Shown: piece after piece, positions 4,555 through 26,775 of the stretch
Position numbering within the stretch: position 1 is the first letter of the stretch
How the letters are laid out: every line of letters begins with the position of its first letter
DNA from: Saccharopolyspora gloriosae
GTDB lineage: Bacteria > Actinomycetota > Actinomycetes > Mycobacteriales > Pseudonocardiaceae
Length of the DNA stretch: 64,000 nt
Direction of reading: 5' to 3'
Assembly (NCBI RefSeq): GCF_014203325.1
Contig: NZ_JACHIV010000001.1
Coordinates: forward strand, 2,791,501 to 2,855,500
The notes under the pieces: generated by a model
What the model was told of the DNA's origin: nothing
What the model saw: only the letters and a program-made list of their open reading frames with translations
Database searches by the model: none
Program-made: the position numbers and the translations under genes

Positions 4555-5629
4555 ACTGCCGGCCGTCGACGGGGTGCTCTCGTCGGCCGATGTGCTGCAG
4601 ACCGCCAGGTCGATCGCCGCGGTGCAGGAGCGCTCCGGCGCGGTGCCGTGGTTCCCCGGTGGTCACGTCGACCCGTGGGACCACGTGGAGTCGGCGATGG
4701 CCCTGTCGGCGGCCGGCCTGCTGGTCGAGGCGGAACGCGCCTACGACTGGCTGCGCACGACCCAGCGCGCGGACGGTTCCTGGCCGTTGCAGGTCCGCGC
4801 CGGGGTGGTGGAGGACGCCGCCTCGGACACGAACTTCTGCGCGTACCCGGCGGTCGGTGTCTGGCACCACTTCATGATCACCGGGGACGCGGCGTTCGCG
4901 GAGCGGATGTGGCCGGTGGTGCGCCGCGCGATCGACTTCGTGCTGCGCCTGCAGCGCGCCCGCGGCGAGATCGCGTGGGCGCGGGGCACCGGCGGCGAGG
5001 TGGGCGGTGAGGCGCTGCTGGCGGGCAGTTCGAGCATCCACCACAGCCTGGTGTGCGCGCTGGCGCTGGCCGAGCACCTCGGTTCCCCGCAGCCGGACTG
5101 GGAGGTGTCGCTGGGCCGTCTCGCGCACGCCCTGCGCCACCACCCGGAGGCGTTCGCGGAGAAGGACCGCTACGCGATGGACTGGTACTACCCGGTCCTG
5201 GGCGGTCCGCTGCGCGACGACGCGGGGTGGGACCGGATCGCGCGGCGCTGGCCGGACTTCTTCGTGGACGGCCTCGGAGTGCGCTGCGTCGACGACAACC
5301 CGTGGGTGACCGGCGCCGAGACCTGCGAGCTGGTGCTGAGCCTGGACCTGCTGGGACGGCGCGACCGGGCCGTGGAGGCGCTGGCGTCGATGCAGCACCT
5401 GCGCGAGCAGGACGGCTCGTACTGGACGGGCCTGGTCTACACCGACGGCAAGCGCTGGCCGGTGGAGCAGACCACCTGGACCGGCGCAGCGGTGGTCCTC
5501 GCCGCGGACGCCCTGTCCGGCGCCACCCCCGGCGGGGGGATCTTCCACGTCGGCGGCCTGCGCTCCGGCCTGCCCGTCGACGACGCCTGCGGCTGCGACA
5601 CCCACATCTCCGAACTGGTCGGCGAGTAG
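4547..5629 (+). CDS. Alpha/alpha-toroid protein (prenyltransferase or six-hairpin glycosidase-like)
   Basis: About 360 residues, mostly helical, with repeated motifs such as YDWLRTTQRADGSWP and LASMQHLREQDGSYWTG that are typical of alpha/alpha-barrel proteins (prenyltransferase/squalene-cyclase repeats or glucoamylase-like six-hairpin enzymes). It also holds WHHFMITGD and DYxV-type helices. GGAGG at 4536-4540 sits 6 bp before GTG 4547, which decides the start against TTG 4544. It overlaps the methyltransferase stop by 8 bp. I cannot tell whether it cyclises or prenylates an isoprenoid, trims a glycan, or only binds one. Its coupling to a GT4 and a methyltransferase suggests it works on the same product. 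Confidence 0.75.
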   Translation: MPELPAVDGVLSSADVLQTARSIAAVQERSGAVPWFPGGHVDPWDHVESAMALSAAGLLVEAERAYDWLRTTQRADGSWPLQVRAGVVEDAASDTNFCAYPAVGVWHHFMITGDAAFAERMWPVVRRAIDFVLRLQRARGEIAWARGTGGEVGGEALLAGSSSIHHSLVCALALAEHLGSPQPDWEVSLGRLAHALRHHPEAFAEKDRYAMDWYYPVLGGPLRDDAGWDRIARRWPDFFVDGLGVRCVDDNPWVTGAETCELVLSLDLLGRRDRAVEALASMQHLREQDGSYWTGLVYTDGKRWPVEQTTWTGAAVVLAADALSGATPGGGIFHVGGLRSGLPVDDACGCDTHISELVGE

Positions 5630-19862: not shown

Positions 19863-20043
19863 GCCATCGACGCTATGAAGACGGCGGATCCCGCGTTCCC
19901 GGATTTCCGGGGCTCCGCGAAGTTCGCCGGTCGCTCGGGTGACGGCGGATTCCGGCGCTCCCCGGCGATGGAAGGGCCCTCCGCACCCCGGCACGACGAA
20001 CTCCCACACTGTGAGAGGCACAATCTTGGTCTGGTGGGTTGGG

Positions 20044-20073
20044 TTTACATCCGCTGGGCGGCGTGGCTACCGT
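20044..20073 (+). promoter_or_regulatory. Predicted promoter of the organosulfur operon
   Basis: TTTACA (20044-20049), an 18-bp spacer and TACCGT (20068-20073) resemble a housekeeping -35/-10 pair. Initiation 7 bp downstream would fall on the A of the leader-peptide ATG at 20080, giving a leaderless transcript, the usual arrangement for actinobacterial cysteine leader peptides. Confidence 0.5.
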
Positions 20074-20079
20074 GATCGC

Positions 20080-20157
20080 ATGGCCCGGACGGCGACGCTC
20101 ACCACGCGCGAATACGTGGACAACGCACGGGTGTCCTCCGCGCTCTGTAGCGCCTGA
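20080..20157 (+). CDS. Cysteine-type leader peptide, 25 aa
   Basis: A 25-codon reading frame with the pattern LTTREYVDNARVSSALC followed by SA and stop. This resembles the short leader peptides found ahead of sulfur-assimilation and sulfonate-transport genes in many actinomycetes (general form T-R-x-x-V-D-x-x-R-V-x-S-x-L-C). Ribosome progress at the cysteine codon near the end is thought to report cysteine supply and control the downstream genes by attenuation. It lies 191 bp before the ABC permease. An inverted repeat (20180-20186 with 20195-20201) follows 22 bp after its stop and could be part of the attenuator. Confidence 0.7.
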   Translation: MARTATLTTREYVDNARVSSALCSA

Positions 20158-20179
20158 GCCCTTCCTTCCGCACTGCCGT

Positions 20180-20201
20180 GGCCGAGCCGGACCGCTCGGC
20201 C
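20180..20201 (+). promoter_or_regulatory. Stem-loop after the leader peptide
   Basis: GGCCGAG at 20180-20186 pairs perfectly with CTCGGCC at 20195-20201 across an 8-nt loop. Its place just after the leader-peptide stop and far before the permease start makes it a candidate attenuator element. No long U-run follows, so Rho-dependent or translational control is as likely as intrinsic termination. Confidence 0.45.
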
Positions 20202-20348
20202 GAGTCGGCACTGCCGCCCCCGCTGACCGACCTTCTCCGGTGACACCGCACGCCTGATGCGAGTCGGTGCGGCGCCCCGTTCTTCGGCGGCACCGGTCGC
20301 GAACCAGTGCCGTCCTCCGCAGATCCTTGTCGCCAGTGGAGCGTGACG

Positions 20349-21203
20349 ATGACTTCGCCCGCGGCGCCTCCGAGCGCCCGATCCGACACCGGCGGCATCG
20401 CCGTCACAACGGTGCGGACCAGCCGATCCAAAGGGGAGCAGCGCGTTCCCCGCTGGCTGGTCAAGACCTTCAGCCCGATCGCGCTGATCGCGCTGTGGCA
20501 ACTGCTCAGCTCGATCGGCGTGCTCGACGACGACACGCTCGCCTCGCCGGCGACGGTCGCCGCCACCGCCTGGGAGATGTGGCAGGAGGGCAGGCTGCAG
20601 GACGCGGTGCTGGCCTCCGTGCAGCGCGTGGCGATCGGGCTGGTCTTCGGCCTGATCGCGGCGGTCGTGCTGGCCACGATCTCCGGGTTGTTCCGGCGCG
20701 GTGAGGACATCGCCGACGCGCCGATGCAGATGCTGCGCACGGTGCCCGTGATCGGCCTGATCCCGCTGCTGATCATCTGGTTCGGCATCGGGGAGACGCC
20801 GAAGATCGTGCTCATCGCGCTCGCGGTGACCTTCCCGCTGTACATGAACATCTTCGGCGGCATCCGCAACGTGGACGCGGGCCTGGTGGAGGCCGCCAAG
20901 ACCCTCGGTCTCGGCTGGTTCGCCCAGGTGCGGCACGTGATCCTGCCCGCGGCGATGCCGAACGCGCTGGTGGGGCTGCGGTTCTCGCTCGGCTCGGCGT
21001 GGCTGGCGCTGGTGTTCGGCGAAACGATCAACGCGAACGCGGGCATCGGCTACGAGATGAACATGGCCCGCGAGTTCTTCCAGACCGACGTCATCGTGGT
21101 CTGCCTGGTGCTCTACGCCCTGCTCGGCCTGGTGGCCGACTTCATCGTTCGACTTCTCGAAAGGACCGTGCTGGCATGGCGACCGGCTTTCCGCGGAGCG
21201 TGA
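20349..21203 (+). CDS. ssuC: ABC transporter permease, SsuC/TauC-like
   Basis: A 284-residue inner-membrane permease of the sulfonate/nitrate/taurine type. It has about six hydrophobic helices, and the EAA loop EAAKTLGLGWFAQVRHVILP that contacts the ATPase. An Ala/Pro/Ser-rich 40-residue cytosolic head precedes the first helix. ATG 20349 has GGAG about 10 bp upstream. It is the first structural gene after the cysteine leader peptide and overlaps the ATPase gene by 28 bp. The symbol is by family resemblance; the transported compound is unknown. Confidence 0.85.
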   Translation: MTSPAAPPSARSDTGGIAVTTVRTSRSKGEQRVPRWLVKTFSPIALIALWQLLSSIGVLDDDTLASPATVAATAWEMWQEGRLQDAVLASVQRVAIGLVFGLIAAVVLATISGLFRRGEDIADAPMQMLRTVPVIGLIPLLIIWFGIGETPKIVLIALAVTFPLYMNIFGGIRNVDAGLVEAAKTLGLGWFAQVRHVILPAAMPNALVGLRFSLGSAWLALVFGETINANAGIGYEMNMAREFFQTDVIVVCLVLYALLGLVADFIVRLLERTVLAWRPAFRGA

Positions 21204-22045
21204 CGGAATCCGCCCCCGAGACCGCGGCCCCCGAGACCGCGGCCCCCGAGGCCGCCCCCGACGAGCACGTCGACGCGGCCACCACCGGTCCGGGCGGGGC
21301 CACCACCGACCCGGGCGGTGCGCCGGAGACCGCCACCGAGTCCGCGTCGAAGGGCGCGCTGCCCGCCACGGTGCGCGGCCTCACGAAGAGCTTCGGCGAC
21401 CACACCGTCATCGACGGTCTCGACCTGGACATCGAACCGGGCCAGTTCGTGGCGCTGCTCGGCCCCAGCGGGTGCGGCAAGAGCACCCTGCTGCGCATCC
21501 TCGCCGACCTCGACCGCGAGATCACCGGCGAGGTCCAGGTGGCGCAGCGGCGCGCGGTGGCGTTCCAAGCGCCGCGGCTGCTGCCGTGGAAGCGGGTGTG
21601 GCGCAACGTGGTCCTCGGCCTGCGCGGCAAGCCGAACCGGGCGAAGGCCGTCGCCGCGCTGGAGGAGGTCGGCCTCGGGCACCGGGTGGACGTGTGGCCG
21701 AAGGTGCTCTCCGGCGGTGAGGCGCAGCGCGCCTCGCTGGCCCGCGCGCTGGTGCGCGAACCGGACCTGCTGCTGCTGGACGAGCCGTTCTCCGCGCTCG
21801 ACGCCCTCACCCGGCTGAAGGTGCAGGCGCTGGTCGGGGAGCTGTGGCAGCGCCACGGCTGCGCGATCCTGCTCGTCACCCACGACGTCGAGGAGGCGCT
21901 GCTGCTCGCGGATCGGGTGCTGGTGATGGACGGCGGCGGCATCGTGCACGACCAGCTCGTCGAACACCCCCGCCCGCGCGACGTGTCCGCACCGGCGTTC
22001 GTGGCGCAGCGCTCCGAGCTCCTCTCCTGGCTGGGAGTGCACTGA
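21176..22045 (+). CDS. ssuB: ABC transporter ATPase, SsuB-like
   Basis: A 289-residue ATPase with Walker A GPSGCGKST, Q-loop AFQAPRLLPW, signature LSGGEAQRASLARAL, Walker B LLLLDEPFSALD and H-loop THDVEEA. The first 60 residues are an unusual low-complexity Glu/Thr/Ala/Pro tail with a short tandem repeat (ETAAP twice). ATG 21176 is preceded by GAAAGGA and lies inside the permease 3' end. It drives the permease at 20349 with the lipoprotein at 24160. Confidence 0.9.
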   Translation: MATGFPRSVTESAPETAAPETAAPEAAPDEHVDAATTGPGGATTDPGGAPETATESASKGALPATVRGLTKSFGDHTVIDGLDLDIEPGQFVALLGPSGCGKSTLLRILADLDREITGEVQVAQRRAVAFQAPRLLPWKRVWRNVVLGLRGKPNRAKAVAALEEVGLGHRVDVWPKVLSGGEAQRASLARALVREPDLLLLDEPFSALDALTRLKVQALVGELWQRHGCAILLVTHDVEEALLLADRVLVMDGGGIVHDQLVEHPRPRDVSAPAFVAQRSELLSWLGVH

Positions 22046-22173: not shown

Positions 22174-23316
22174 ATGAGTGTGGAAATCGTCGGCATGATC
22201 GGCCCCCAGCACGTCTCGGAGATCCACCGAGCAGAAGGGCCCGCGATCGACCCGGAGTTCCTGCGGCGTTTCGCCCGCGCCCACGAGGACGGCGGGTTCG
22301 ACCGCGTGCTCATCGGCCACGGCTCCGGCTCACCGGACGGCACCCAGATCGCCGCGCACGTCGCCGCGCACACCGACCGGCTCGGGTTCCTGGTGGCGCA
22401 CCGGCCGGGCTTCGTGTCGCCGACGCTGGCGGCGCGCACCTTCTCGACGCTGGACACCCTCGCGGGCGGCCGGATCGCGGTGCACATCATCACCGGCGGC
22501 AGCGACTCCGAGCAGCGCCGCGACGGCGACTACCTGGACAAGGAGCAGCGCTACGCCCGCACCGACGAATACCTCGACGTCCTGAAGCGGGCGTGGACCG
22601 AGGACGGCCCGATCAGCCACGACGGCCCGAACTACCGCTTCGAGGACTTCCAGACCGCGGTGAAACCCGTTCAGCGGCCCCGGATTCCGCTGTACTTCGG
22701 CGGTTCCTCCGAGGCCGCATACCGGGTCGGCGGCAAGCACGCCGACGTGTTCGCGCTGTGGGGCGAACCGCTGGCCGAGACCGCCGAGCAGATCGCCTCG
22801 GTGCGCGCCGCCGCCCGCGCGGCCGGGCGCACCGACACCCCCGGAATCAGCGTGTCGTTCCGGCCGATCCTCGGCGCCACCGAGGAGCTCGCCTGGGAAC
22901 GCGCGCATTCCGTGCTGGACCGGATCCACGCCGCCCGCGGCGGGTTCGGCTCGTTCACCGGGCCGAAGACCCTCGGCAAGGGCACCGAGGTCGCCAACGT
23001 CGGCTCGCAGCGCCTGCTCGCCGCCGCCGCGAAGGGCGAGCTGCACGACCGCGCGCTGTGGACCCCGACCTCGCAGGCCACGAACGCGGCGGGCAACTCC
23101 ACCGCGCTCGTCGGCACCGCCGAGACCGTGGCGAAGGCGCTGGCCGACTACGTCGACATCGGCGTGACCACGTTGCTGATCCGCGGTTACGACCCGCTCG
23201 ACGACGCCATCGACTACGGCCGCGAACTCCTCCCGGCCGTCCGCGAAGAAGTCGCCCGCCGCGCCCGCGCGGGCGCGACCACCGAGCAGGACCAGAGCGA
23301 AAGGACCCCGGCATGA
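22174..23316 (+). CDS. FMN-dependent monooxygenase, SsuD-like (luciferase family)
   Basis: A 380-residue bacterial-luciferase-like (LLM) monooxygenase: GGFDRVLIGHGSGSPDG, DTLAGGRIAVHIITGG and PRIPLYFGGSSEAAY are the typical flavin-pocket segments of SsuD-type alkanesulfonate monooxygenases. SsuD uses reduced FMN and oxygen to split sulfonates to sulfite and an aldehyde. ABC genes, the cysteine leader and a class II aldolase around it support organosulfur use. No flavin reductase is encoded nearby, so FMNH2 must come from elsewhere. It starts 128 bp after ssuB and its stop overlaps the next start. Confidence 0.85.
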   Translation: MSVEIVGMIGPQHVSEIHRAEGPAIDPEFLRRFARAHEDGGFDRVLIGHGSGSPDGTQIAAHVAAHTDRLGFLVAHRPGFVSPTLAARTFSTLDTLAGGRIAVHIITGGSDSEQRRDGDYLDKEQRYARTDEYLDVLKRAWTEDGPISHDGPNYRFEDFQTAVKPVQRPRIPLYFGGSSEAAYRVGGKHADVFALWGEPLAETAEQIASVRAAARAAGRTDTPGISVSFRPILGATEELAWERAHSVLDRIHAARGGFGSFTGPKTLGKGTEVANVGSQRLLAAAAKGELHDRALWTPTSQATNAAGNSTALVGTAETVAKALADYVDIGVTTLLIRGYDPLDDAIDYGRELLPAVREEVARRARAGATTEQDQSERTPA

Positions 23317-24131
23317 CCGCCACCGCACCTTCCTCGCAACTCTCGGAATTCGCCCGGAACCTGCGGCCCCGCACCAACACCTTCCCGCCGCGGCCGAAGT
23401 TCGACTCCGTGGAGGACGAGCGGCTCTTCCGCAAGCAGCGCCTCGTCGCCGGGTTCCGGATCTTCGGCAAGCTCGGCTACAACGAGGGCGCAGCCGGGCA
23501 CATCACCGTGCGCGACCCGGAACTGACCGACCACTTCTGGGTCAACCCCTTGGGCCGCGCGTTCAGCCGCATCAAGGCCTCCGATCTGCTGCTGGTCAAC
23601 CACGACGGCGAGATCGTGCACGGCGACCACCCGGTCAACCAGGCCGCTTTCGCGATCCACTCGCAGATCCACCGCGCCCACCCGCACCTGGACGCGGCCG
23701 CGCACAGCCACTCCATCTGGGGCAAGGCGCTGGCCGCGCTGGGCACCGAGCTGCTGCCGATCTCGCAGGACGGCGCGCAGTTCTACGGCGACAACGTGAT
23801 CGTGCCGGACTTCTCCGGTGTGGTGCTGGACCTGGAAGAGGGCCGCCGCATCGCCGAAACCCTGGGACAGCGGCGGGTGGCGATCCTCGCGAACCACGGC
23901 CTGCTCACCGTCGGGCGGTCGGTGGAGGAGGCGGTGTCGCTGTACGTGGCCGCCGAGCGCAACGCGAAGACGCAGATCCTCGCCTCGTCGGCGGGCGAGC
24001 CGCAGCTGATCCCCGACGACATCGCCCGCCACACCCACGAGCAGTACAGCAGGCACGCCGACCCGGGCTGGGTCACGTTCGCGCCGCTGTACGAGGAGAT
24101 CGTGCACGAACAGCCCGACCTGCTGGACTGA
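23313..24131 (+). CDS. Class II aldolase/adducin-family protein
   Basis: A 272-residue class II aldolase-fold protein. The zinc-ligand pattern is seen in HPHLDAAAHSHSIWGKALAALG (HSHS) and in ANHGLLTVG (third histidine), with NEGAAGHITVRDPE at the N-terminal phosphate or substrate loop. It starts inside the stop of the monooxygenase (ATGA). Class II aldolases cleave or epimerise sugar phosphates, but this subgroup includes many uncharacterised catabolic proteins. It could act on the aldehyde or hydroxy-acid left after desulfonation; this is inference from the operon. Confidence 0.85.
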   Translation: MTATAPSSQLSEFARNLRPRTNTFPPRPKFDSVEDERLFRKQRLVAGFRIFGKLGYNEGAAGHITVRDPELTDHFWVNPLGRAFSRIKASDLLLVNHDGEIVHGDHPVNQAAFAIHSQIHRAHPHLDAAAHSHSIWGKALAALGTELLPISQDGAQFYGDNVIVPDFSGVVLDLEEGRRIAETLGQRRVAILANHGLLTVGRSVEEAVSLYVAAERNAKTQILASSAGEPQLIPDDIARHTHEQYSRHADPGWVTFAPLYEEIVHEQPDLLD

Positions 24132-24159
24132 CCGTCCTAAACGGACATGAGGAGTGATC

Positions 24160-25131
24160 GTGGCTCGACATCGCACGGCGGTGGTGGCGGTGGTGCTAGC
24201 GCTGCTCTCGGTGCTGGCAGGCTGCGGCGGCGGACGACCCGCGGACCGGCTCTCGGACGTGACCCTGGTGCTCGGTGACCAAGCCGGCGGCACCCGGGCG
24301 CGGGCCGAGGCGGCGAAGGCGTTCGAGGACGCGCCGTACCGGGTGCGGTGGGCCAATTTCCAAGGCGCCGCGCCGCTGTTCGAGGCGGTGCGTTCCGGCG
24401 AAGTGGACACCGCCGTCGCCGGGGACACCCCCACCTTGCAGGCGCTGGCCGGGGGAGTGCCGATCCGCCCGGCCGTCGCCACCGCCGCCGCGCAGTCGTC
24501 CACGGCGATCGTGGTGCCGCCGGACTCGCCGATCCGCACCGTGGCCGACCTGCGCGGCAAGCACATCGTGATCTCCTCGGCCGCGGGCAGCATCTCGCAG
24601 CTCACCGTGCTCGGAGCACTGGAGGAGGCGGGCTTGGACCCGCGCGATGTGGAGATCACCTTCAGCCTGCCCACCGACGCTCAAGCCGGTTTCCGCGCCG
24701 GCCACATCGAGGCGTGGGCGACGTTCGACCCGTACCTCGCCATCGCGCAGGACGCGGGAGCGCGGGTGCTCCGCGACGGCACCGGCATCAACGGCCACAA
24801 CGGATTCATATCCGTCGCCGAGTCCTCCCTGGCGGACCCGCTGAAGCGGGAGGCGTTGGCCGACGCCATGCGCCGATTCGCCCGAGCCTGGCAGTGGAGC
24901 GACGAGAACCAAGCCGAATACCAGCGGGTCTACTCGGACCTGACGTCCCTGGAACCCCAGGTGGCCCGCAACATCCTCACCCGGACCCGGCAAGAGATCC
25001 GGCCGCTGAGCCCGGAGGTGCTCGCCGAGTTGCAGCGCACCGCCGACCGGTTCCGCGCCGCCGGGGTGATCCGGGAGCCGATCGACGTCGCGGCATCCAG
25101 CGTGCCCGACCTGTACTCCGGCGGGGCATGA
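24160..25131 (+). CDS. ssuA: ABC substrate-binding lipoprotein, SsuA-like
   Basis: A 323-residue lipoprotein. The N-terminus has a basic start, a hydrophobic core VVAVVLALLSV and the lipobox LAGC (cysteine near residue 22). The periplasmic-binding-type body contains GEVDTAVAGDTPTLQALAGG and DLRGKHIVISSAAGSISQL, the NMT1/SsuA pattern for sulfonates and related anions. GTG 24160 is preferred over GTG 24154 because GGAG at 24151-24154 would abut the latter. It captures substrate outside the membrane for the permease/ATPase at 20349-22045. Confidence 0.87.
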   Translation: MARHRTAVVAVVLALLSVLAGCGGGRPADRLSDVTLVLGDQAGGTRARAEAAKAFEDAPYRVRWANFQGAAPLFEAVRSGEVDTAVAGDTPTLQALAGGVPIRPAVATAAAQSSTAIVVPPDSPIRTVADLRGKHIVISSAAGSISQLTVLGALEEAGLDPRDVEITFSLPTDAQAGFRAGHIEAWATFDPYLAIAQDAGARVLRDGTGINGHNGFISVAESSLADPLKREALADAMRRFARAWQWSDENQAEYQRVYSDLTSLEPQVARNILTRTRQEIRPLSPEVLAELQRTADRFRAAGVIREPIDVAASSVPDLYSGGA

Positions 25132-25159: not shown

Positions 25160-26233
25160 ATGACGCGCACGTGGGTGCCCGACAGCGCTTCGCGGGGCCA
25201 CGTCGTAGTGCTGCACGGCAGGGGCGAACATCCCGGTGTGTACGAGCGGTTCGGGCGCAGGCTCGCCGTCGACGGCTACACGGTGGTCGTACCGGACCTG
25301 GCCGCGGAGCCGGGTGAGCCCGCGGCGTGGTTCGCCGACGCGGGCGACACGGCCCGCATCCTCGTCGGGACCGACACCGGGGCGCTGCGAGCCTGGGAGG
25401 CGGCGCTGAGCTCGTCCGTCGACGGCCTGGTGCTGGCGGGCACGCCGCTGTCGGCGGCGACGGAGGCGCCCGCGGGCCGTGACGAAGAGATCTCCGCGCG
25501 CACGTCCTGCCCGATCCACCGGGAACGCCTCGACGCCGACCCCGACTTCAGGTGGGGCGAGCTCGACGCGGGCACTTCGGTGCCGCCGCGAGGTCTCCCG
25601 GAGATCCCGGTGCTGCTGCTGCACGGCGACGGCGACGCCATCGCGCCGGTGGACCCGGTGACGCGGCTCGGCGCCGCGCATCCGCAGGCCACCGCGGCGG
25701 TGTTCAAGGACGGCGTGCACGACATCCTCAACGACAAGGTGCACCGCAGCGTCGCCGCCCGGATCGTGCTGTTCTGCGAGGAGATCGCCAAGGGAGCCGT
25801 GGTGCTGCCCGAGGTCACCGCCGCGAAGAGCTCGCGGGTGCGCCGCGCCGCGCCCGTGCACATCTCGGCGCGGGTGGACTACTCGGTGCGGGCGCTCACC
25901 GAACTCGCCCGCAGCGGCAGGCAGCAGACCTGCGAGTCGATGGCCCGCACCCAGGGAATTCCGCTGAACTCCCTGGTGAACCTGATGGTGGAGCTGCGCC
26001 GCGGCCGCCTCGTCAACAGCCAGCGCGGCTGCGAAGGCGGCTACTGGCCGGCGAAACCGGCCGAGGAGATCACTCTCGCGGAGGTGATCCGCGTCGTGGA
26101 GGGCTCGGTGACCTCCCGCCACGACGACGCGCCGCAGGACGGCGTGTGGGCGCGGCTGGGCGGCACGGTCGCCGAGTTCCTCGACCACGTCACCATCGCC
26201 GACCTCGCCGCCGACCGAACCCCGGTGGCCTGA
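25160..26233 (+). CDS. Alpha/beta-hydrolase fused to an Rrf2-type DNA-binding domain
   Basis: A 357-residue fusion. Residues 1-215 form a dienelactone-hydrolase-like alpha/beta fold (VVVLHGRGEHPGVYE; acid D159 in HGDGDAIAP; H187 in KDGVHDIL). The nucleophile elbow reads G70-T-D-T-G74, so aspartate replaces the usual Ser or Cys. Residues about 234-357 are a complete Rrf2 winged-helix domain (ISARVDYSVRALTELA, IPLNSLVNLMVELRRGRLV, GGYWPAKPAEEITLAEVIRVVEG, VTIADLA) without the three-cysteine cluster of IscR, as in the cysteine regulator CymR. It probably senses a pathway metabolite or cysteine status and controls the sulfur operon. Whether the hydrolase half is active is open. Confidence 0.85.
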   Translation: MTRTWVPDSASRGHVVVLHGRGEHPGVYERFGRRLAVDGYTVVVPDLAAEPGEPAAWFADAGDTARILVGTDTGALRAWEAALSSSVDGLVLAGTPLSAATEAPAGRDEEISARTSCPIHRERLDADPDFRWGELDAGTSVPPRGLPEIPVLLLHGDGDAIAPVDPVTRLGAAHPQATAAVFKDGVHDILNDKVHRSVAARIVLFCEEIAKGAVVLPEVTAAKSSRVRRAAPVHISARVDYSVRALTELARSGRQQTCESMARTQGIPLNSLVNLMVELRRGRLVNSQRGCEGGYWPAKPAEEITLAEVIRVVEGSVTSRHDDAPQDGVWARLGGTVAEFLDHVTIADLAADRTPVA

Positions 26234-26313: not shown

Positions 26314-26775
26314 ATGTCCGACGCCTTCCACCCCGACTTCAGCTCGCAGGACGCACCCGCGGACGACCGGCCGCTGCGGGCACGGCTGCACCACATCCGT
26401 GGTGATTCGCTGGACCGCAACACCGCGCAGACCGAGGGGATGCAGCGGCTCGCCGCGATCAGCGGGGACACCGTCGGCTCCGAGCGGATCTGGACCGGCG
26501 AGACGCACGTCGCCCCGTCCACCTCCTCCGACAACCACCACCACGGCGAGTCCGAGACGGCGATCTACGTCGCGAGCGGCAACCCCGAGTTCGTCTTCCA
26601 CGACGGCACCGAAGAGGTCCGCATCAAGACCGAACCGGGCGACTACATCTTCGTCCCGCCCTACGTCCCGCACCGCGAGGAGAACCCCGACCCGGACAAC
26701 AAGGCCGTCGTCGTCATCTCCCGCAGCACCCAGGAGGCGATCGTCGTGAACCTCCCGGAGCTCTACGCGCTCTGA
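26314..26775 (+). CDS. Cupin-domain protein
   Basis: A 153-residue single cupin. The first motif contains the histidine-rich metal site DNHHHGESETAIYV, and the second GDYIFVPPYVPHREENP supplies the last histidine. Such small cupins bind iron, manganese or zinc and serve as dioxygenases, isomerases or sensors. It follows the sulfur operon, 80 bp after the fusion gene and past a hairpin. A role in sulfur compound oxidation is possible (several thiol dioxygenases are cupins), but the sequence does not decide it. Confidence 0.82.
   Translation: MSDAFHPDFSSQDAPADDRPLRARLHHIRGDSLDRNTAQTEGMQRLAAISGDTVGSERIWTGETHVAPSTSSDNHHHGESETAIYVASGNPEFVFHDGTEEVRIKTEPGDYIFVPPYVPHREENPDPDNKAVVVISRSTQEAIVVNLPELYAL

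Follow-up and report, generated by a model that had tools for sequence, protein, structure and literature searches.

The stretch of 64,000 nucleotides from Saccharopolyspora gloriosae analysed here (the window) contains genes for a SsuABC-like transporter, a luciferase-like (LLM) flavin monooxygenase, an aldolase family protein, an alpha/beta-hydrolase fused to an Rrf2 regulator and a small cupin, preceded by a putative promoter with a short leader peptide (Table 1). Judged from its gene content the operon is of the sulfonate type; several of the genes stay under the curated Ssu cut-offs.

Table 1. Genes, promoter elements and key residues at the fusion locus (positions counted from the first nucleotide of the window)
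Feature	Position	Strand	Basis
Candidate operator: dyad AATCCCAAC-N7-GTTGGGATT, degenerate (6 mismatches, five in the left half)	20022..20046	.	promoter alignment
Putative -10 element TACCGT, 6 nt before the leader ATG	20068..20073	+	inferred from orthologous promoters
Leader peptide MARTATLTTREYVDNARVSSALCSA, Cys-leader (cis_reg_atten) type	20080..20157	+	NCBIfam NF042934, 20.2 bits, cut-off 27
SsuC-like ABC transporter permease	20307..21203	+	Pfam BPD_transp_1; NCBIfam SsuC model E 2.7e-73, below its cut-off
SsuB-like ABC transporter ATPase	21176..22045	+	profile matches; start estimated
Luciferase-like (LLM) flavin monooxygenase, SsuD-related	22174..23316	+	Pfam Bac_luciferase E 3.9e-72; SsuD model 217 bits of 510 needed
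Class II aldolase/adducin family protein (PRK06208)	23313..24131	+	374 bits, cut-off 255
SsuA-like substrate-binding protein	24154..25131	+	TIGR01728 149.6 bits, cut-off 163.5
Alpha/beta-hydrolase (residues 1-215) - linker - Rrf2 (235-351) fusion	25160..26233	+	frame translation, Pfam
D72, nucleophile-elbow Asp (GTDTG)	25373..25375	+	D in 81/81 distinct relatives with letters there
D159, triad acid	25634..25636	+	D in 81/81
H187, triad base	25718..25720	+	H in 81/81
C258, invariant Cys in the Rrf2 half	25931..25933	+	37/37 fused, 9/9 split
C291, invariant Cys in the wing (RGCEGGY)	26030..26032	+	37/37 fused, 9/9 split
Small cupin, conserved partner gene	26314..26775	+	Cupin_2 E 2.2e-10

Translation of the fusion gene gave a single uninterrupted frame of 357 residues and a stop codon. 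Its hydrolase half matches Pfam Hydrolase_4 with an E-value of 9.2e-12 (45.2 bits, cut-off 27), and residues 1-215 also match Abhydrolase_1. The Rrf2 half, residues 235-351, has an E-value of 1.5e-22 (80.6 bits, cut-off 30) and covers positions 1-131 of the 132 of profile PF02082, which places it in the Rrf2 family by score. With both Pfam domains above their cut-offs in one frame of 357 codons, and with the same arrangement in 38 of 390 genomes of the family Pseudonocardiaceae, the fusion put forward in the original prediction is real. The enzyme domain had been described as dienelactone-hydrolase-like, which did not hold: dienelactone hydrolase entries match only weakly, and in Pfam, profile and fold comparison Hydrolase_4 and the monoacylglycerol lipases (MGL) are nearer, so that dienelactone hydrolase was rejected as the parent. 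Among the matches listed, the nearest solved structures of the hydrolase half are MGLs (6eic, 7l4u), with a TM-score of 0.77 to 6eic_B over the query, and the GxGE motif and the positions of the acid and the His align with them. For the Rrf2 half the closest solved structure is CymR (2y75), which is also its best phmmer match.

An AlphaFold2 model of the hydrolase half alone (pLDDT 76.8, pTM 0.79) places D72 in the expected strand-turn-helix elbow (strand 65-71, helix 73-84), D159 in the loop after strand 151-156 and H187 after strand 177-182. The model of the full-length fusion is weak (pLDDT 68.3, linker below 50), and contacts between the halves are not readable from it. An internal start giving a free Rrf2 product was considered at V233, which is a GTG codon in the window but Leu in the Pseudonocardia row; a conserved start at this place is thus unlikely.

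Within the 390 genomes of the family, the match over both halves is nearly full-length in 37 of the 38 fusion genomes, and in the remaining one (G271, locus L045) it runs from residue 60 on, a frame break having left the N-terminal part in another frame. Altogether 91 of the 390 genomes gave a match, 53 of them with one half only or with both halves apart; few candidates (5 to 8) were scored per genome, here and in the searches at order and phylum level, and misses are possible. The fusion is also encoded in eight named records, seven from Saccharopolyspora and one from Pseudonocardia, and among the matches listed for 397 genomes at the order level there were seven full-length ones, all from the family of the window. 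The alignment of fused proteins comprises 37 of the 38 genomes (G281, whose match scores are identical to those of G280, was left out). Several findings speak against a sequencing or assembly error that joined two genes: both halves lie within one match in all these genomes and records, the fused rows form one clade and none of the 37 aligned rows has an inner stop. We rule out an error as the source of the fusion and give this explanation practically no chance.

In a split form, the two halves are encoded by adjacent genes at nine loci, in nine genomes opened, and at one of these loci (L072) the two genes overlap by 4 nt. A tree of 85 hydrolase domains, from which duplicates and pieces shorter than 150 residues were left out, groups the 37 fused rows in one clade (100/100), which spans five genus labels, and the nine split rows in a separate clade (99/98). 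There are also standalone hydrolases, and at 31 of their 32 loci no Rrf2 match was found in the flanks searched (at least about 5 kb per side). At the other one (L097 in G496) a match with 35% identity lies at 2545-2955, about 2 kb upstream of the hydrolase at 5013, and this is perhaps another linked pair.

The elbow of the hydrolase half reads G70-T-D72-T-G74, and D159 and H187 are at the acid and base places of MGL-type triads, in agreement with the original prediction of an elbow Asp next to an otherwise complete triad. The three residues were found throughout a first alignment of 37 fused and 17 unfused rows, and in all 81 distinct relatives with letters at these columns, unfused ones included. 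This count covers three loci (L095, L104 and L111) that were unreadable at the motif columns in one alignment; the 82nd relative is a fragment, the row of L045 kept with its broken N-terminal part, and the only one without letters there. Most members of the Asp family also carry the motif RTxCPxHR, with its Cys in 80 of 81. The nearest outgroup, represented by four rows, has a Ser nucleophile in the elbow GHS[FL]G and retains the acid and the His, and in the tree the Asp family stands apart from it (100/100). Of 346 genomes sampled from the phylum, eight matched, namely the four Ser rows and four family members including the genome of the window itself. Since the unfused members have the same Asp, Asp and His and the outgroup has Ser, the Asp predates the fusion and, as judged from these alignments, marks a whole family of Asp-elbow enzymes. 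A dead sensor created by the fusion was rejected as the origin of the Asp, which the unfused members have too.

A family that keeps the acid and the His after the exchange of Ser for Asp would most simply consist of Asp-nucleophile enzymes. According to the part of PMC7034887 available, haloalkane dehalogenases and epoxide hydrolases use an Asp as nucleophile (D124 in 1B6G, D192 in 1QO7). With these enzymes the hydrolase half shares the elbow Asp, the acid and the His, and a nucleophilic role of D72 is suggested by this likeness. No structure of either group was found among the PDB matches listed, which were the best 60 by profile and the best 50 by fold, and the residue following the Asp, which is Trp in haloalkane dehalogenases (W125 in 1BE0), is T73 in the fusion and T, V, S, A, D, C, R or L in its relatives. 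Of the two options offered by the original prediction, the Asp-nucleophile enzyme in the manner of haloalkane dehalogenases has thus gained as far as the nucleophile is concerned, and by sequence it is not a haloalkane dehalogenase. The catalytically dead ligand sensor has lost ground.

The Asp-elbow hydrolase domain also occurs in another fusion. In L104:3306-5723 it stands behind an FAD-dependent monooxygenase of the aromatic-ring type, according to Pfam, in a protein of 805 residues, whose gene is flanked by genes for an NtaA-type monooxygenase and a cupin. A similarly long frame in L095 is perhaps a fusion with an FAD monooxygenase as well, which we presume from the frame length only.

The gene neighbourhood of the hydrolases is also conserved in part. 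The cupin gene adjoins the hydrolase-Rrf2 unit at 35 of 37 fused and nine of nine split loci, and of the 17 fused loci (among 37) that have wide flanks, five include the aldolase gene. An LLM monooxygenase is encoded within 5 kb at each of these 17 fused loci, at all four split loci with wide flanks (of nine) and at 23 of 32 standalone loci, in 15 of these 23 on the same strand, as found with a search model derived from eight LLM monooxygenases, the majority of which come from these same loci. For comparison, 40 LLM Pfam matches in the own 6.83-Mb genome correspond to a background of about 0.06 per stretch of that size. One standalone hydrolase (L109) lies beside a SsuD-like enzyme and an FMN reductase, and those of L104, L106 and L108 lie near NtaA/DmoA-type monooxygenases and dipeptide-type transporters. 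These partners (SsuD-like and NtaA/DmoA-like enzymes, the FAD monooxygenase fusion, DUF1684, dipeptide-type ABC transporters and the cupin) point to organosulfur chemistry or to other flavin-monooxygenase chemistry only. The DUF1684 gene was seen in L108:6075-11125, where the standalone hydrolase lies directly 3' of it, among three luciferase-like monooxygenase genes; this arrangement hints at a role of DUF1684 in the same chemistry as the hydrolase.

Fe-S-sensing Rrf2 regulators of the IscR, NsrR and RsrR type have a triad of cluster-ligating cysteines after the helix-turn-helix. Such a triad was not found in the fusion: C258 and C291 are the only Cys columns of the Rrf2 half in the 37 fused rows, and Fe-S sensing is disfavoured. 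The Rrf2 half does not reach the cut-off of the IscR equivalog and scores 61.1 bits with the CymR equivalog NF047409, which has a cut-off of 195. The recognition helix reads PLNSLVN in all 37 fused rows and PARFIKAV in all nine split rows (in one count of fused rows eight of 37 were lost to a motif filter, and the Cys and helix counts were redone on all 37). A profile search of the own genome gave no clear Rrf2 protein besides the fusion (82.4 bits); the next match is partial, with 58 of 132 positions and 30.5 bits at a cut-off of 30.

A promoter had been predicted at position 20044. This position falls in a putative promoter with dyad and leader peptide, to which we correct the prediction, at about 20022-20080. 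Dyad, hexamer and leader ORF make up a block that is conserved among the aligned promoters. The 25-bp dyad is carried by the orthologous promoters with 1-5 mismatches, and its stretch GTTGGGTTTACA occurs once in the whole own genome at up to one mismatch. At the -10 place the orthologous promoters with a leader have the hexamer TACCGT, TAGCGT or TACGGT, with TAATGT in L065, and the position of this hexamer would suit a leaderless transcript. In 17 of the 21 promoters scanned, the dyad is followed at a distance of 27-33 nt by a leader ORF ending in RVSSALC or a similar sequence. The four exceptions are L065, with a leader that the pattern missed, L006, which starts too near the contig end, and L068 and L070, in which the dyad is further upstream than the stretch scanned for the spacing. 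Four leader peptides were scored with NF042934; two pass the cut-off, both from the genus of Pseudonocardia kujensis (34.5 bits in L009 and 34.8 in L064), and the peptide of the window and that of L004 (22.9 bits) remain below it. In mycobacteria, short Cys-rich ORFs are predicted to put the genes that follow them under the control of cysteine supply, as stated in the accessible part of PMC9094748. The one fold computed for 20080-20306 was no better than shuffled sequences as an attenuator (z -0.24). The pattern search gave no leader peptide next to the dyad at the operon of G279 (L139) or next to those of G220, G341, G353, G366 and G381.

At up to 2 mismatches the dyad occurs in 30 of the 390 family genomes, once in each, of which 25 belong to the 38 fusion genomes and five to the 352 others. 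In 22 of the 25 it lies at the operon, 2.7-5.2 kb upstream of the fusion gene. In G307 and G363 it is on another contig than the fusion gene and is followed by a leader peptide, and in G353 it is far from the operon; 13 fusion genomes have no dyad at this threshold. One of the five other genomes (G293) has the dyad and a Cys leader on a short contig, and no fusion was found in it. Fisher's test gives p = 3.7e-25 for the association of dyad and fusion, a value that is overstated, since the motif was drawn from these orthologous promoters, which makes the enrichment partly circular, and the genomes are related. As controls, the reversed pattern matches four of the 390 genomes, none of them among the 38, and of five shuffled half-sites one gave a single match at up to 2 mismatches against 14 for the real one, in searched loci that overlap, so that copies were counted more than once. 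Five other dyad sites were opened; two fall within predicted genes, and the remaining three are intergenic, among genes of other kinds.

In the own genome the dyad pattern is found at two places when 3 mismatches are allowed. One of them precedes a second operon (C1:2654506 onward; L123:5007-7605), in which the dyad, with 3 mismatches, ends 33 nt before the ATG of the Cys leader MPQRPMLTTRDHVDLSRVSSALCHR (32.2 bits, cut-off 27). After the leader, this operon encodes a SsuA, which scores 186.8 bits (cut-off 163.5), as well as a monooxygenase of the NtaA/DmoA type, which scores 509 bits (cut-off 279.7). The dyad was built from other genomes, so this match is a check outside the training set and is less circular evidence for the dyad than the genome counts. 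From its sequence the second operon is likely a second target of the fusion. For 20 leader candidates of the own genome we also looked for the best-matching stretch in the 150 nt upstream, on the strand of the leader. The second operon has 3 mismatches, L185 has 4, the operon of the window and L176 have 6, and the other 16 have 7-10. By score alone the dyad of the window is not above the background in its own genome, where it ties with the unrelated leader L176. At L185 (C1:4223206) a leader candidate ends in VVAQGC and the dyad with 4 mismatches lies 87 nt upstream of the model match; this is a possible third target.

The split operons have other promoters. The dyad is absent from them at up to 5 mismatches, no Cys leader was found by search, and they share another sequence. 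Upstream of the monooxygenase gene, the split loci L046, L047, L049-L051 and L072-L075 have the block CCA-C-AAATGGACACC...CCAATTGACA, with small variations, which may be the operator of the split Rrf2 protein, whose recognition helix is a different one. Recognition helix and promoter sequence differ together between the fused and split forms.

Based on these observations, we propose that the fusion is a one-component trigger enzyme, i.e. a local repressor of the organosulfur operon with a ligand-reading enzyme built in, and we give this proposal an even chance of being correct. The Rrf2 half would bind the dyad just upstream of the probably leaderless promoter of the operon and thus repress it. 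The hydrolase half would be an Asp-elbow enzyme of the organosulfur pathway, as its conserved triad suggests. With the active site occupied by the substrate, or possibly by an ester on D72, the winged-helix dimer to which the hydrolase is attached would leave the DNA. The operon would then be on only if an organosulfur compound is present, as read by the fusion, and if Cys-tRNA is short, as read by a leader attenuator that we propose from the peptide family. The fusion may descend from the adjacent gene pair, which is observed in the split form, or may stand beside it. Originally the enzyme was thought to be directly wired to transcription; that the protein is linked to the transcription of its own operon has indirect support from the distribution of the dyad, from the second operon and from the fusion being the sole clear Rrf2 protein. 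In our proposal the hydrolase half would alter DNA binding. It is tempting to go further and to suppose that the repressor is gated by a covalent catalytic intermediate, in which case the lifetime of the D72 ester would set DNA binding and the protein would be a direct flux sensor. This sensor, which we hold to be unlikely, would build on a separate origin of the Asp nucleophile in the alpha/beta-hydrolase fold, suggested by the Ser of the outgroup.

The trigger-enzyme proposal has to face several observations. The dyad of the window is poor, no better by score than that of L176, and another factor could bind the dyad. A good dyad is missing in 13 of the 38 fusion genomes, the copy in G353 is far from the operon, those in G307 and G363 are on another contig than the fusion gene, and G293 has the dyad and the Cys leader without a fusion found. 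The poor dyad in the window, the 13 genomes and G293, together with the absence of the dyad from the split operons, would fit a dyad that belongs to another regulator, with the Rrf2 half acting elsewhere or as an activator. This does not go well with the lack of another clear Rrf2 protein in the own genome, with a dyad nearly confined to fusion genomes and with the second site in front of a like operon, and we consider it rather improbable. The standalone hydrolases without an Rrf2 neighbour indicate in addition that the enzyme needs no regulator, and the full-length model, from which domain contacts would have to be read, is weak.

It is possible, although doubtful in our view, that the halves are tethered but independent: the hydrolase would be a pathway enzyme, Rrf2 a local repressor with its own signal, for example thiol oxidation at C258 and C291, and the fusion would only equalize their amounts. 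In line with this, both cysteines are invariant in the 37 fused and nine split rows, split and fused forms coexist, and standalone hydrolases exist near monooxygenase genes. The maintenance of the fusion in a clade with five genus labels fits a functional tie of the halves, yet it is also expected if they are independent. A hydrolase half that only binds a ligand after the elbow Asp has abolished catalysis is very unlikely. It would agree with the replacement of the Ser nucleophile relative to the nearest outgroup and with GabR, the enzyme activity of which is not essential for regulation according to the available text of PMC6522883. However, it leaves unexplained the conservation of all three residues in 81 of 81 relatives, which include standalone members and the two proteins taken as FAD-monooxygenase fusions (L104 and L095).

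Among known regulators, CymR and the fusion are alike in lacking the Fe-S cysteine triad and in their sulfur context. The activity of CymR is under control of CysK, a separate enzyme (PMC6522883, in the part available), and this control by an enzyme, which we propose for the fusion too, is taken as a further likeness. In the fusion, the enzyme is covalently joined and is a hydrolase rather than a cysteine synthase, and the low NF047409 score also sets it apart from CymR. The DNA of Rhodococcus qingshengii IGTS8 encodes a CymR/Rrf2-type regulator (peg394), which was detected only in dibenzothiophene culture (PMC8557817, as far as its available text goes). By description, both proteins are of the Rrf2 family and linked to organosulfur use in actinomycetes, and the available part of that paper mentions no hydrolase domain for peg394.

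Like GabR and other MocR-type proteins, the fusion joins an enzyme-fold domain to a DNA-binding domain, and judged by conservation its active site is intact. The DNA-binding domain of GabR is of the GntR type; the fusion differs in the enzyme fold, in the DNA-binding family and in the opposite domain order. In GabR, an aminotransferase fold is fused to the DNA-binding domain for local control of the pathway operon, and the signal is given by a ligand adduct that occupies the active site (PMC6522883, available part). With this precedent, the original claim that an enzyme-fold sensor would be new was too broad, and it stands for Rrf2 proteins: we found no report of an Rrf2-hydrolase fusion in the open-access literature, and as far as our searches of it reach the novelty is limited to this family. 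SsuD/SsuABC and NtaA/DmoA operons with NF042934 Cys leaders have the same kinds of genes and leader peptides as the operon described here, which differs in its proposed local control by the Rrf2-hydrolase protein and in a leader and a monooxygenase that score under the curated cut-offs.

The locus is of interest for several reasons. Enzyme and Rrf2 repressor are one chain here and two adjacent genes in another genus, which makes the step from enzyme to sensor testable. The hydrolase family has a lipase-like scaffold, in which the Ser of the GxSxG motif of MGLs is replaced by Asp in every member seen and found only in the four outgroup rows. Its members are often located beside flavin monooxygenases of the kinds that break C-S bonds, and their reaction would fill a gap in organosulfur assimilation. 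Last, the predicted repressor is cheap to test because the prediction specifies two promoters, a dyad and a catalytic residue.

Near one gene, presumably ftsZ, dyad-like AATCCCGAC repeats recur in G353 (L126) and in the own genome (L128); they are probably unrelated to the operator proposed for the fusion. The Cys-leader model gave 23 matches in the own genome at E-values up to 10 (L171-L190 and three more places), 11 of which are over the cut-off, and no match in any of 14 control genomes passes it. This suggests that many operons of this genome may be under leader-peptide control.
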